IMG/VR virus record: IMGVR_UViG_3300032271_001055
Location: 1-22,006 of that record
DNA: 22,006 nt
From: a virus
Strand: one strand, 5' to 3'
Shown piece after piece: positions 10,568-21,373 of this stretch. The notes under the pieces were generated by a model. That model saw only the letters and a list, made by a program, of their open reading frames with translations. It was not told the origin of the DNA and ran no database searches. The number at the start of each line of letters is the position of its first letter. Within the stretch, counting starts at the first letter, position 1. The translations under genes were made by a program, and so were the position numbers.

Positions 10568-13860
<3,293 letters not shown>

Positions 13861-13861
<1 letters not shown>

Positions 13862-16944: not shown

Positions 16945-19069
16945 TCCAGAAGCGCTTGCCCTCGCGGCAGAGATGCGTGCCGAGGGGCACGAGGTCCCGC
17001 CGGACATCCTTGCCGCGGCCGGCCTTGACGCCCCGCACGCGCCCGGTCAGGACATGGGGCAGGGCCCGACCGTCCAGCGCGCGCAGGAGCTCCACGACCT
17101 CGACCGCAAGGCGGCCGCGGACGCCTACGCCGGGATGGGCCCGTTCGCGCAGCGTGCAACGTCGACCGGGCAGGGCGCGGTCCACGCCTACAACGCCCTG
17201 AAGCACCACCTTGGGCTGATGTCCGATCAGGACTACGCCAACGCCAACACGATCGATGAGCCGGCGAAGGAGGCCCACCCCGGCTACAGCATGGCCGGCG
17301 AGGCCCTCCCGTTCATGATCCCGGGCCTGAACGTCGGCGAGCTCGCCGGGCTGGGGGCCAAGTACGGGATCCCCGCCGCCAAGAGCGCCGTCACGGCCCT
17401 GCGCAACCCGATCGTGCGGGGCGGGGCCGAGGGCATGGCTCAGGGCGCGATCACCTCCGATAACGCGTGGGAGGGCGCCGGAGAGGGCCTTCTGGGTGGC
17501 GCCGCGATCCCGGGGGCCTTCCATGGCGCCGGGAAGCTGGTACACGGCATGAATATCCGCCCAGAGGCCCGTGCCCTTCTGGACCGGTGGGGTCCGGACC
17601 GGATGCGCCTGACCCCGGGCCAGATGCTGGGCGGGGCATGGGGCCACGTCGAGGACACCCTCCGCCCGGCGATCCCGGGCCTCGAGACGCTCCGGGACAA
17701 CCCGAAGCGGGACTTCGCCCACAACCTGATCGCGGACGCCGCCGCCCCGGCCTACCGCGACAGCGGCGTGGCCATGCCGGCCCACGAGATCCCGAGCTCG
17801 GCCCGCGCCTCTGGTATGCGGGACGCCTACAACTCCGCGCTCGACTCCTATGACCCCCTCTACGGTTCGGTCCGGCCCTACCCGTGGCAGCCGAACATGT
17901 TCAACCTGACCGGGAGCAGCCCGACCGTCCTGAGCCAGATGGCGGCCGAGGCCGGCGCGCGCGGATCGGGCGTGACCGACTCCGCCCGCCGCAAGGCGAC
18001 GCAGGTCATGCAGGACATCAACTCCGGCTACCCGAAAGGTCACCCGATCCGGCTCCCGCTGTCGGACATGACCGCCGGCGACGCGATCGACCTTCGCTCC
18101 GCCGCCCGGGCCGCGGCTCGGAACCTGCCCAACGACCCGAACGCGGCCGGGTACGGCGCCCGGCCCTTGGTCCGCAACGCGTCCGATGCCGTGACTCGCT
18201 CCCTCGAGAACCAGCTCCCGACGGAGGCCGTCAATACCCTCCGCACCGGCGACCGCAGTTTCCGGGACCTGATGAACGTGCAGGGCGCGATCGACAACAC
18301 CCCCGCCGGGGCGGACTGGTTCACCCCGGCCCAGTACCTGCGGGAAGCGGAAGGCAACAGCACCGCCCGGCAGCGCGTCACGGGGCGCGGGCTGGACCCG
18401 AACGTCGACACTGCCAACCACGCCGCGGCCCTCTTCCGGGAAGACCCGAAAACGGGCTACGCGCAAGCCAAACTGGCGGCGCTGGCCGGAAAAGCAGCCG
18501 TTGGGGCCGGGATCGTCGGGACCCACGCCGCGTTCCCGCTGATGGCTGCCGGGAGCCTGCCGCTCGCCTTTGGATACACCCCATGGGGCCGGGCCGCCAT
18601 CGCCGGCATGTCTCGCCCGCAGCGGATCGCACAGCGCGGAATGGAGCTCTTCAATCAGGGCCTCGACCGGGCCTCGACGGGGATGGTCCCGGGGCAAGAC
18701 CTGCGGCTGCAGGAGCTCCTGTCCAAGTACGGCACCCAGCAGGGCGGGGCGACGCTCGGGGCCCACGAGGCGACCGACCGCTACAACGTCCCGATGCGGA
18801 TCCCCTTCCCGGCCGCGGCTCTGGAGGCCGCGCACGAGCCGGAGGTCCAGCAGTTCCACGTCGGGGGCCCGGCCCGGGAAGACGTCCAGTTCGCGGACGG
18901 GGGCAAGGTCGACCCGTCCCTGATAGACCGTTTCATCGAGTACCTCCGGAGCCAGCTCGGGATCATCCCCGGTGGCGGAGAGATACCGACCCACCCCCAC
19001 GACAATGGACCGTCAGGCCCGACAGGTGGTGGGGTCTCTGTGATGCAGGCGGCAGATCAACAGTCATAG
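16931..19069 (+). CDS. Large virion-like protein with hydrophobic segments, probable internal or ejection protein
   Basis: The 712-residue product begins inside the preceding gene. Residues 1-100 are acidic and helical (MATPDPEALALAAEMRAEGH). Residues 115-220 contain Gly/Ala-rich, weakly hydrophobic parts (GEALPFMIPGLNVGELAGLG, GAGEGLLGGAAIPGAFHGAG). The middle is helical with many Arg, Asp and Pro (DAIDLRSAARAAARNLPNDP). A clear hydrophobic stretch near residues 520-550 (AAVGAGIVGTHAAFPLMAAG) could cross a membrane. Near residue 654 is a FADGGKV motif followed by DPSLIDRFIEYLRSQLG. No catalytic site was found. A 704-residue frame exists on the other strand but is a high-GC shadow. Context suggests a DNA-ejection or core protein; the family was not recognised. 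Confidence 0.55.
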   Translation: MATPDPEALALAAEMRAEGHEVPPDILAAAGLDAPHAPGQDMGQGPTVQRAQELHDLDRKAAADAYAGMGPFAQRATSTGQGAVHAYNALKHHLGLMSDQDYANANTIDEPAKEAHPGYSMAGEALPFMIPGLNVGELAGLGAKYGIPAAKSAVTALRNPIVRGGAEGMAQGAITSDNAWEGAGEGLLGGAAIPGAFHGAGKLVHGMNIRPEARALLDRWGPDRMRLTPGQMLGGAWGHVEDTLRPAIPGLETLRDNPKRDFAHNLIADAAAPAYRDSGVAMPAHEIPSSARASGMRDAYNSALDSYDPLYGSVRPYPWQPNMFNLTGSSPTVLSQMAAEAGARGSGVTDSARRKATQVMQDINSGYPKGHPIRLPLSDMTAGDAIDLRSAARAAARNLPNDPNAAGYGARPLVRNASDAVTRSLENQLPTEAVNTLRTGDRSFRDLMNVQGAIDNTPAGADWFTPAQYLREAEGNSTARQRVTGRGLDPNVDTANHAAALFREDPKTGYAQAKLAALAGKAAVGAGIVGTHAAFPLMAAGSLPLAFGYTPWGRAAIAGMSRPQRIAQRGMELFNQGLDRASTGMVPGQDLRLQELLSKYGTQQGGATLGAHEATDRYNVPMRIPFPAAALEAAHEPEVQQFHVGGPAREDVQFADGGKVDPSLIDRFIEYLRSQLGIIPGGGEIPTHPHDNGPSGPTGGGVSVMQAADQQS

Positions 19070-19217
19070 TGACCAAGCCCCGGGGCCGGTAGAGCTCATA
19101 CCTCCACTTTGCCGGCACGAACCGATACAGCCCGCGGGCGATTAACTTCACGAACAGAAGGAAGATCATCGCCAGCGCAAGCCGAACGATAACCGAGACG
19201 ACGGTGTTCAAACGCAA
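18963..19217 (-). CDS. Possible small membrane protein on the minus strand
   Basis: This is the only minus-strand frame in the window I would consider. It encodes up to 84 residues, beginning with an uncharged-to-basic membrane segment (VVSVIVRLALAMIFLLFVKL) and then a basic stretch (FVPAKWRYELYRPRG). On the minus strand AGGAG stands six bases before a TTG at 19211, and a second in-frame TTG lies at 19217. Codons in the intergenic part mostly end in G or C, as in real genes here. Against it: the second half is antisense to the end of the 712-residue gene, both candidate starts are TTG, and every other gene is on the plus strand. It may be a small gene, a remnant, or chance. Confidence 0.3.
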   Translation of the reverse strand: MRLNTVVSVIVRLALAMIFLLFVKLIARGLYRFVPAKWRYELYRPRGLVTMTVDLPPASQRPHHLSGLTVHCRGGGSVSLRHRG

Positions 19218-19232
19218 CTCCTAGGAAACAAG
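19070..19232. other. Largest intergenic gap in the window
   Basis: The 163 bases between the large virion gene and the HNH gene form the only gap longer than about 20 bases. No plus-strand frame, tRNA or convincing sigma-70 promoter is visible. A weak inverted repeat (GCCGG and CCGGC about 20 bases apart) is too small to call a terminator. The only coding potential is the minus-strand membrane ORF. The last bases carry AGGAAA, six to ten bases before the ATG of the HNH gene, as its ribosome binding site. Confidence 0.6.
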
Positions 19233-19661
19233 ATGGCAGTCACAGAAGCTCAAAAGCGCTGGCGTTCTCGCAATAAAGAACAAATGAAAATCAATCGAAA
19301 AAAGGCGTACGCTTCTACAGCAAAGTATGCTGTTGCCGCCAGAAAAGCAACCCCAGAGGGTTGGGCAAAAGCTACTTTACCCAGATTGCGGTATAGAGCC
19401 CGAAAAGCCGGACTTGAATTTGATTTAAGGTGGGAAGATATTGTTCCCCCCACTCATTGCCCCGTCATGGGCATGCCACTGCAATTAGCGGGCAAGCGCG
19501 GGCAAATGAATTGGCATTCTCCTAGCGTTGATAGATTCGACAACAGCTTTGGTTATACACGAAATAATGTTCGTGTAATCAGTAACCGGGCAAATATCTT
19601 AAAAAAAGACGCCTCTTTAAAAGAGATTCGTCAATTGTTGGCCTACATGGGCGGAGGGTAA
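19233..19661 (+). CDS. HNH-type endonuclease, probably a free-standing homing endonuclease
   Basis: The 142-residue product has a basic N-terminal half (EAQKRWRSRNKEQMKINRKK, LPRLRYRARKAGLEFDLRWE) typical of DNA-contacting parts of phage HNH proteins. It then has the nuclease core: THCPVMGMPL at about residues 75-84, SPSVDRFDNSFGYTRNNVRV at about 96-115, and ISNRANILKKDASLKEI. The DR...GY...NV...S..AN..K spacing is characteristic of a phage HNH class. Such enzymes cut DNA at one site and promote spread of their own gene. Hand-counted GC over 19261-19620 is about 45%, against about 63% in the following gene, a clear sign of separate origin. It starts at ATG with AGGAAA upstream. Its last 41 bases overlap the open frame of the downstream hydrolase, whose normal start is missing. 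Confidence 0.82.
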   Translation: MAVTEAQKRWRSRNKEQMKINRKKAYASTAKYAVAARKATPEGWAKATLPRLRYRARKAGLEFDLRWEDIVPPTHCPVMGMPLQLAGKRGQMNWHSPSVDRFDNSFGYTRNNVRVISNRANILKKDASLKEIRQLLAYMGGG

Positions 19662-19665
19662 CTCT

Positions 19666-20196
19666 ACGACTACGATCGCTTATCGAGAAGGCATTTTGGC
19701 AGCGGACAGTCAGGTGACGGTTGACTCGGAAGGTGGCGGCTCTCGCAAGTTCAAGTGCGAGAAGCTGTACCGGAGAGAGGTGCCGAAGCTGGGGGAGTGC
19801 ATTATCGGTCTGGCCGGGGGCTCGTTCGATGGTCTGGTGTTCCTCGACTGGCTCGTCACGGGCGACGTGGATGCCCCGCAGCGGCTGCTTGACGGCGCGG
19901 CCGACTTCACGGCTCTGGTCCTGTCCAAGGAGGGCCTGTTCGAGTACGACCTCTGGTGCCGCCCGGATAGGGTCCTCGAAAAGTTCTACGCGGTCGGGAG
20001 CGGGGCCAAGGCCGCCCTCGGCGCAATGCACATGGGGGCGGACGCCAAGAAGGCGGTCGAGATCGCGTGCCGGATCGACCCCTACACCCGGCCCCCGATC
20101 ACGGTCATGTCCCTTGCGGCGACCCCCAAGCCGAAGTCAAGCCGCCAGCGGACTGCTGTACATGCACCAGAAAAGGCGGTAGAGTCAAGTAGTTGA
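19666..20196 (+). CDS. HslV/proteasome-like Ntn-hydrolase (start codon missing or unusual)
   Basis: The protein resembles phage relatives of HslV, the threonine protease of the proteasome superfamily. From 19666 the frame reads TTTIAYREGILAADSQVT, the classical N-terminal strand: a Thr that would act as nucleophile after Met removal, and an Asp in AADSQ. Next come a Lys-containing SRKFKCEKLY segment, GECIIGLAGGSFDGLVFLDW, and AVGSGAKAALGAMHMGADAK. These match the HslV fold in order, and about 177 residues is normal length. The difficulty is the start. In this frame there is no ATG, GTG or TTG from the stop at 19618 until TTG at 19696, which would remove the nucleophile strand. A GGAGGG at 19653-19658 is well placed for the ACG at 19666. 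The gene may use that codon, be recoded, or be broken by the HNH insertion. Family call is firm; activity is doubtful. Confidence 0.72.
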   Translation, partial: TTTIAYREGILAADSQVTVDSEGGGSRKFKCEKLYRREVPKLGECIIGLAGGSFDGLVFLDWLVTGDVDAPQRLLDGAADFTALVLSKEGLFEYDLWCRPDRVLEKFYAVGSGAKAALGAMHMGADAKKAVEIACRIDPYTRPPITVMSLAATPKPKSSRQRTAVHAPEKAVESSS

Positions 20197-20215
20197 ACCA
20201 TCCACGGAGAGACAC

Positions 20216-21373
20216 TTGACAACCAATCATCGACCTGACATCACGGTAGCGCAAGCGGTAGCGGCTTACGAGCAGTACGGATCCCAGAGGGCGGCCGCGG
20301 AGGCGCTGGGCGTAAACCAGTCCACGGTCTGCCGCAAGCTGCGGATGAACGGGGAGTCGTCCTATCATCCTCCTGCCGAAGGATTCTACGTCAAGGGCGT
20401 CTCGACCCTCTACAACGCGAACGGAGAGGTCTCCGCGCAGTGGGTCAAGACCAGCATCGAGCAGGAGGACCGGGCCAAGGCGATCATCGCCGCGCTCAAG
20501 CTGGAGCTGGCCGACATCGAGCCGGCCCCGGCGCTACCCCCAGCCCTGCCGAACGCGCACACGGACCAGTTCCTGACGGCGTACCCGATCGGGGATGCCC
20601 ACTTCGGGATGTACGCATGGGCCGAGGAGGCCGGGGAAGACTTCGACCTCAAGATCGCCTCGGATGACCTTCTTGCGGCCGCGACGCGGCTGCTGTACTC
20701 GTCGCCGAAGACCAAGGACTGCCTGATCATCAACGTGGGAGACTTCTTCCACGCCGACGACGGCACGGCCCGGACCCCGCAGCACGGGAACAAGCTGGAC
20801 GTCGACTCGCGGCACTTCAAGGTGCTCCGGACCGGGATCAGGGTCTTCGTGCGGATGATCACGCTATCATTGCAACGGCACGATAACGTCTACGTTGTTA
20901 TCGTGCCGGGCAACCACGACCCGCACAGTTCGATGGCCCTGTCGCTGGCGCTCGAGCAACGCTTCTGCAACGAGCCCCGGGTCAAGGTCGTTGGCCACCC
21001 GAGCCCGTTCTATTACCACGAGTTCGGGAAGAACCTGATCGGCGTCACGCACGGCGACACGGTCAAGCCCGAGAGGCTGATGGAGCTGATGGCCACCCAC
21101 CAGCGCGCGGCGTGGGGCCGGGTCGAGTACTGCCACTGGATCACGGGCCACGTGCATCATAAGCGAGTCTTTGAGTCGTCTGGGGGCGTAGTTGAATCGT
21201 TTAGAACGCTTGCCGCGAAGGACGCGTGGCACCACATGAGCGGATACAACTCCGGTCGAGACATGTGCTCGATCGTCTACGACAAAGAGCACGGCGAGTA
21301 CGAGCGACACCGCGTCGGACTGTCCATGCTCAGGAACCCCAATGCCGAACCCATTCCTCGACTACCTCGCTGA
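20216..21373 (+). CDS. Metallophosphoesterase with N-terminal helix-turn-helix
   Basis: The start is TTG with GGAGAG four bases upstream, giving 385 residues. Residues 8-45 (ITVAQAVAAYEQYGSQRAAA, then EALGVNQSTVCRKLR) form a helix-turn-helix of the kind that binds DNA. From about 120 the calcineurin-like metallophosphoesterase core is complete: Asp127 and His129 in GDAHFG, Asp176 in GDFFHADD, Asn233-His234-Asp235 in GNHDPHS, His279 in THGD, and His312 and His314 in GHVHH. All metal-binding positions are present, so the enzyme is expected to be active on phosphodiester or phosphomonoester bonds, possibly DNA given the fused domain. The substrate is unknown. It follows the hydrolase gene by 19 bases and overlaps the next gene by 32 bases. 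Confidence 0.85.
   Translation: MTTNHRPDITVAQAVAAYEQYGSQRAAAEALGVNQSTVCRKLRMNGESSYHPPAEGFYVKGVSTLYNANGEVSAQWVKTSIEQEDRAKAIIAALKLELADIEPAPALPPALPNAHTDQFLTAYPIGDAHFGMYAWAEEAGEDFDLKIASDDLLAAATRLLYSSPKTKDCLIINVGDFFHADDGTARTPQHGNKLDVDSRHFKVLRTGIRVFVRMITLSLQRHDNVYVVIVPGNHDPHSSMALSLALEQRFCNEPRVKVVGHPSPFYYHEFGKNLIGVTHGDTVKPERLMELMATHQRAAWGRVEYCHWITGHVHHKRVFESSGGVVESFRTLAAKDAWHHMSGYNSGRDMCSIVYDKEHGEYERHRVGLSMLRNPNAEPIPRLPR
20877..20907. repeat. Perfect 11-bp inverted repeat inside the phosphoesterase gene
   Basis: GGCACGATAAC (20877-20887) and GTTATCGTGCC (20897-20907) are exact reverse complements separated by nine bases. They can form an 11-bp hairpin in DNA or RNA. The repeat lies in codons for HDNVYVVIV, just before the GNHD metal-binding motif. 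No U-run follows, so it is not an ordinary terminator. Confidence 0.85.

Follow-up and report, generated by a model that had tools for sequence, protein, structure and literature searches.

In a metagenomic virus contig a free-standing gene for an HNH homing-type endonuclease appears, on balance, to have inserted at the start of a gene for an HslV-like hydrolase, which would still be made weakly from an ACG codon. The DNA analysed, hereafter the window, comprises positions 1 to 22,006 (22,006 nucleotides) of IMGVR_UViG_3300032271_001055, a single virus contig from a metagenome.

Organization of the locus

The features at the junction of the two genes and around it are:

19233 to 19661, plus strand: free-standing HNH endonuclease gene, 142 aa (phrog_3322, E 1.7e-31; GC 46%, GC3 0.42)
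19653 to 19658, plus strand: Shine-Dalgarno (SD)-like GGAGGG within the last HNH codons, 7 nt before the ACG at 19666
19659 to 19661, plus strand: TAA, HNH stop codon, 4 nt ahead of the ACG, a layout that fits termination-reinitiation
19666 to 19668, plus strand: ACG, proposed start codon at the initiator-Met position (homologue alignment; near-cognate codons at this position in other loci)
19669 to 19671, plus strand: ACT, codon of Thr1, the catalytic residue at the N-terminus of the mature hydrolase (T1 invariant in 59- and 55-sequence alignments; match to the HslV/proteasome beta fold)
19666 to 19701, plus strand: first 12 hydrolase codons, with HNH-like codon composition, a probable co-transferred tract (GC3 5/12 against 0.82, binomial P 0.0019)
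19666 to 20196, plus strand: intact gene of the HslV-like hydrolase or phage proteasome homologue (PPH) (phrog_1040; pLDDT 92.3; Foldseek match to HslV)
19696 to 19698, plus strand: TTG, first canonical start in frame, the use of which would lose strand E2-6 and the nucleophile (sequence and model)
20216 to 21373, plus strand: next gene downstream, combining HTH and metallophosphatase (phrog_704 exonuclease family), which also adjoins the hydrolase in HNH-free phages

The hydrolase frame is free of stops from 19621 to 20196. Inspection of its codons between 19621 and 19698 revealed no ATG, GTG, TTG or CTG ahead of the TTG at 19696, as a preliminary description of this DNA had claimed, and the same description was correct in placing the end of the HNH gene within this region (the TAA at 19659-19661 closes the ORF 19233-19661) and GGAGGG seven bases from the ACG. 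Alignments with phage homologues obtained by tblastn start at query residue 2 of TTTIAYREG; these homologues begin with Met-Thr-Thr-Ile and their Met aligns with the ACG at 19666, which indicates that this codon occupies the initiator-Met position. The N-terminus described as conserved from 19666 is intact, with the refinement that ACG stands at the place of the Met and the nucleophile Thr is encoded by the next codon, ACT 19669.

A shorter hydrolase starting at TTG 19696 would use the first canonical start in frame, with AAGG close upstream. The alignments and the model agree with the earlier placement of this codon past the nucleophile strand, and a protein initiated there would lack the strand, its Thr and the invariant TTIAxxxG segment. 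In the loci examined the start directly precedes TTIA and does not lie further in, so the suggestion that relatives might begin at this TTG did not hold, and we regard such a start as extremely improbable.

No phage-encoded tRNA able to read the unusual start was found in the window, and the four junctions analysed for RNA structure folded no better than shuffled sequences (z from -0.18 to 0.46). A group I or II intron was considered and rejected: no Rfam match was obtained for 18700-20300 (E up to 1), and only 4 nt separate the HNH stop from the ACG. Upstream of the HNH gene, a 712-aa protein of the window had no match among phages. Between the gene for this protein and the HNH gene, the minus strand (18963-19217) contains an open frame with a membrane-helix-like start (MRLNTVVSVIVRLALAMIFLLFVKLIARGL). 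Elsewhere in the window, a predicted protein of 1097 aa (10568-13861) contains a long poly-glycine run.

Identity of the hydrolase

Sequence comparison and structure prediction both indicate that the hydrolase gene of the window is real and intact. A match to phrog_1040, the phage 'peptidase HslV family' (E 3.4e-33), was obtained for its product, which is not a member of the bacterial HslV equivalog NCBIfam NF003964, for which it scores 15.7 bits against a cut-off of 137. The model predicted from 55 sequences (pLDDT 92.3) has the proteasome/HslV fold, with Thr1 borne on the N-terminal strand, and HslV structures were its top Foldseek matches (E 4.9e-10, probability 1.00). In the alignment T1 and K32 are invariant and D13 is conserved in at least 90% of the sequences; going by the alignment, we take these residues to be the counterparts of T1, D17 and K33 of HslV. 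With the frame open to 20196 and the predicted fold and active-site residues intact, the earlier remark that the rest of the gene is undecayed stands. The neighbouring phrog_704 exonuclease gene also adjoins the hydrolase gene in other phages, without an HNH gene. Of the published names the closest is PPH, given to a proteasome homologue that occurs in phages and in their hosts; propeptides are reported to be absent outside the beta and HslV subunits, PPH included (PMC8665760).

Two other loci of this family deserve mention. In phage CcrColossus (NC_019406.1, L093:1501-1531) the hydrolase is annotated from 1531 though an ATG at 1501 precedes TTIAYRSG; the annotated start was likely mis-called. 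Locus L144 (8874-8901) encodes a possible propeptide, MRNSLRTHG followed by TTIAYRDG, from an ATG after GGAGGG; the Gly before the Thr resembles that of proteasome beta subunits, whereas PPH proteins are described as propeptide-free (PMC8665760).

The HNH gene family

The HNH protein of the window matched phrog_3322 (E 1.7e-31) and phrog_3118 (E 6.9e-9); it had no match in Pfam, and the HNH profile had none among PDB sequences. The conserved pattern of the family is H...SPSVDRFDN..GYT..NVRVIS.RAN. The best phage relative was found in Brevundimonas phage Kabachok, immediately 5' of a nucleophile aminohydrolase. This HNH protein (47-49% identical to that of the window) and the one encoded in contig L142 (37%) are, in the loci assembled, the two further examples that immediately precede a hydrolase gene of this family. 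When hydrolase codons 1-8 were examined for synonymous-site conservation, as a mark of an endonuclease site, only mild codon bias emerged. An HNH gene of phage DSL-LC04 (OR003939.1, L004:4586-5450) shares 26 nt with the 5' end of a gene of the same protease family, which has kept its ATG start; tblastn found no match between this HNH protein and the HNH family of the window.

Kabachok and the empty site

Kabachok (L048, ON529852.1) is an isolate. Its HNH gene ends in ...ATGGAGGGAGGATCATAA, and the hydrolase gene that follows reads ATA ACA ACG ATA GCA (I-TTIA), with no in-frame NTG upstream of the ATA. The HNH stop overlaps this codon (ATAA), and an SD-like site, GGAGGGAGG, stands at the place equivalent to GGAGGG in the window.

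On both flanks Kabachok shares 88-92% DNA identity with four relatives that lack the HNH gene (Domovoi, Papperlapapp, Bambus and Marchewka). The identity breaks off at L048:1361, immediately past the stop codon of the gene upstream, and picks up again at L048:1815 (hydrolase codon 2). Between these points the relatives have a short spacer with the start codon TTG at its end, where Kabachok has ATA. This comparison indicates that in Kabachok the HNH unit took the exact place of the spacer and start codon, since the HNH-free relatives possess both and identity resumes at codon 2. The change from TTG to ATA requires two base changes and therefore is not a simple point mutation. After the ATA, the first three codons differ from those of Domovoi synonymously only and the following three match exactly, a pattern that transfer of a short tract along with the insert would give. 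Presence and absence of the HNH gene at an otherwise conserved site is seen in Kabachok and its four relatives. The alignment of hydrolase 5' ends with HNH-free relatives that had been proposed for the window could thus be made for Kabachok (TTG start in all four relatives), and it favours the option, named in the preliminary description, that the start was lost when the HNH gene arrived; a search of the collections for a close relative of the window found none, the best exonuclease match being 46% identical.

In the deposited annotation, the Kabachok hydrolase starts at GTG 1839 (L048:1812-1839), within the N-terminal hairpin, and loses the catalytic Thr. The HNH ORF (1366-1815) is unannotated, and a short reverse-strand CDS was called in its place.

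Recurrence of weak starts across hydrolase loci

A total of 2.9 million virus contigs were scanned with the pattern TTIA[YF]..[DE]G, allowing both NTG and non-NTG at codon -1; a first profile, built from eight distant hydrolases, was too diverse for the contig scan. After setting aside the non-NTG matches that were not hydrolases (L141, L143, L145, L147-L149 and L151-L155), at least 164 true loci were gathered from the pattern scans and from loci fetched otherwise. Among the 164 loci listed, the codon at the Met position was ATG in at least 126, GTG in at least 24, TTG in at least 4, CTG in at least 1, ACG in 3, ATT in 3, ATA in 2 and GGA in 1. An NTG codon was thus present in 155 of the 164 motif-matched loci listed, a lower bound, canonical loci being undercounted, so the share of near-cognate codons is an upper estimate. 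The lack of such a codon in the window accordingly goes beyond chance. The GGA belongs to L144, where an upstream ATG follows GGAGGG, and this locus was left out of the near-cognate count because of its propeptide-like form.

Clustering at 90% identity gave at least about 122 clusters, seven of them near-cognate: the window (ACG), L048 (ATA), L104 (ATA), L142 (ATT), L146 (ATT), L150 (ATT) and L156/L157 (ACG). With L144 aside, all seven non-NTG starts are one base from ATG, against an expectation of about 0.105 for each random non-NTG sense codon. In prokaryote genomes the sole match to an ATH start (L265) was a chance match and not a hydrolase.

An HMM of the three HNH proteins, applied to the 900 bases upstream, matched in three loci only among the 164 listed (the window, L048 and L142). 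All three pairs lack a canonical start, whereas none of the 155 NTG loci listed has the HNH gene upstream (Fisher P 8e-5 for the loci listed and 1.2e-4 for their 90% clusters); the window was the starting point of the scan, so one of the three pairs is not an independent draw. The L142 contig carries a diverged third pair, in which the HNH gene overlaps the 5' end of the hydrolase gene and extends past its start position; the Met position is ATT and the SD-like sequence is GGGGTGA. The recurrence of HNH gene and weak start in unrelated phages suggests that such mobile genes home onto start codons.

The HNH gene is not the sole cause of near-cognate starts, which also occur in the HNH-free loci L146, L150 and L156/L157. 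L150, with ATT at the Met position, has in addition an in-frame GTG ten codons upstream. In L156 (941-944) and L157, two assemblies identical over 2 kb, there is no HNH gene and no clear SD, and the ACG at the Met position is reached through TGA CCC ACG after an upstream ORF in the same frame. In L104 (794-820) an eight-codon ORF, ATGGCTGAGATGGAGTACGTGTCATAA, stands at the place of the conserved ATG and is followed by the hydrolase gene from ATA; the end of this ORF resembles the end of the Kabachok HNH gene, and ATG occupies the corresponding position in the relatives L107 and L119. The eight-codon ORF may be the scar of an HNH deletion.

Origin of the ACG codon

The GC3 of the first 12 hydrolase codons in the window is 5/12, compared with 0.82 in the remainder of the gene, 0.42 in the HNH gene and 0.84-0.89 in neighbouring genes (P 0.0019); this 5' signal is suggestive, as there are other low-GC3 stretches in the hydrolase gene, the lowest near its C-terminus. 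Probably one cassette brought the HNH gene, the ACG and the first hydrolase codons together. The position of the ACG within a tract of HNH-like, low GC3 makes a recent mutation, or a mistake in base calling, less likely.

The same observation bears on an assembly or sequencing error, in which the true base would give ATG, or a one-base indel in the run of G would have altered the frame. The window is a single metagenomic contig, ACG is one base away from ATG, and GGGCGGAGGG minus one G would fuse the HNH and hydrolase frames; against this, the same phenomenon is found in the isolate Kabachok (ATA), and ACG also occurs in the two assemblies L156 and L157. A sequencing error in the window is weakened as an explanation, and we consider it highly improbable.

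Is the hydrolase translated?

To our knowledge, ACG is absent from the start list of table 11, and together with its weakness in an E. coli reporter this means that the hydrolase gene could be nearly silent. In one study, an ACG start in a reporter with a good SD gave 0.1-1.5% of ATG; ATT ranged from undetected to 7-22%, depending on the reporter, and ATA and ATC fell within 0.01-6.5% (PMC6925171). The HNH insertion might have silenced the hydrolase, leaving the ORF as a recent untranslated relic too young to decay, as the absence of a canonical start, the weakness of ACG and ATA in the E. coli reporters (PMC6925171) and the few residues that separate Kabachok from its HNH-free relatives, which may point to a recent insertion, would allow. 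We judge this unlikely, though it carries more weight than the other alternatives: the surviving codon is near-cognate in every case, and each of the three HNH pairs keeps both an unbroken hydrolase frame and an SD-like site (window, GGAGGG; L048, GGAGGGAGG; L142, GGGGTGA). The dN/dS of near-cognate loci against their relatives (0.05-0.13) is similar to that of canonical relatives, a point in favour of translation; this ratio does not, however, date the loss of the start.

The preliminary description had also offered a +1 ribosomal shift at GGG TAA C that would yield an HNH-hydrolase fusion, and the SD-like GGAGGG and the stop codon do lie right at the shift site. Relative to the HNH gene, the hydrolase lies in the +1 frame in two of the pairs (window and L142) and in the -1 frame in the third (Kabachok), which makes a shared recoding signal unlikely. 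In addition, a fusion would bury Thr1 inside the protein, whereas PPH proteins are reportedly propeptide-free (PMC8665760). The chance of such a shift appears very small.

The sequences are best read as pointing to initiation at the ACG, which would probably be weak and depend on translation of the HNH gene through coupling. The rare ACG start, another option of the preliminary description, hence persists as the best remaining candidate, with its exact Met position, strong SD and the recurrence of ATA and ATT at this position.

Proposed mechanism

An HNH unit would insert exactly at the start codon of a PPH gene, displacing the spacer and the canonical start, and would carry its own tail (GGAGGG and stop codon) together with the first few hydrolase codons, ACG standing in for the Met codon. 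The ACG left behind is probably a crippled but usable start. Low-level synthesis of the hydrolase could then proceed by initiation at the ACG with fMet, aided by the SD within the HNH gene and by possible reinitiation of ribosomes released at the stop codon 4 nt earlier, after which methionine aminopeptidase would remove the Met and expose Thr1. If the HNH protein has the presumed homing activity, loss of the canonical start may shield the insert from cleavage by the enzyme that it encodes.

Further relatives in the HNH scan lie upstream of genes that start with MNIF..P, or overlap them; among these genes, the one in L073 scores as Pyr_excise (PF03013; 28.3 bits against 23). The Met position of these genes is mostly ATG, with TTG in L053, L054, L062, L067 and L083; at the HNH end it is ATT in L073 (L073:1790) and ATC in L085 (HNH end near 1650). 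These loci provide a lead to Pyr_excise-type genes as a candidate second target of the same HNH superfamily. Tentatively, the superfamily might be specialised in start-codon homing by way of conserved 5' coding ends (of the proteasome homologue and of the pyrimidine-dimer glycosylase type); the SD and near-cognate start of the cassette (ACG, ATA, ATT or ATC) would keep the target alive at a low level, destroy the recognition site and couple expression of the target to the endonuclease gene. We hold this extension to be possible, and less probable than the insertion at the hydrolase start itself.

Comparison with known systems

Free-standing homing endonucleases are usually described as harmless residents between genes; here the start of the next gene is repeatedly replaced by a near-cognate triplet. 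The loci yield candidate natural ACG, AUA, AUU and AUC starts in phages and allow the sharing of one translation site by a mobile gene and its target to be tested directly. The starts of such genes are misplaced by gene callers, as in the Kabachok hydrolase, which is annotated from a GTG with loss of the catalytic threonine. In the literature covered, with most subscription journals outside it, we found no report of homing endonucleases replacing the start codon of a downstream gene and none of ACG starts in phage genes.

Like the PPH proteins, the hydrolase of the window is phage-encoded, of about 140-175 residues, with Thr after Met and the HslV/proteasome-beta fold; it differs in its ACG start and in a 5' edge joined to an HNH gene, and the available text on PPH reports no such start (PMC8665760). 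The GTC of Streptomyces sigR is likewise reported as a weak start outside the NTG class, in a gene that is otherwise normal, whereas that of the window is ACG, lies in a phage and is tied to a mobile element (PMC5472188). The HNH unit ShiLan sits out of frame inside phage methylase genes and ends in TAAC; the window shares a mobile HNH unit that ends in TAAC at the junction, in a frame unlike that of the host gene, but the ShiLan unit lies within a host gene whose frame is kept open, whereas the insert of the window lies at the start codon (PMC11855218). The free-standing homing endonuclease genes of T-even phages, such as mobE and segF, also lie between conserved genes with overlapping or coupled frames; in T4 several of them, mobE and segF included, overlap their upstream neighbour, and translational coupling with this gene has been proposed (PMC2988022). 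In those phages it is the start of the endonuclease gene that overlaps the upstream gene, whereas in the window it is the downstream target that loses its canonical start (PMC2988022).
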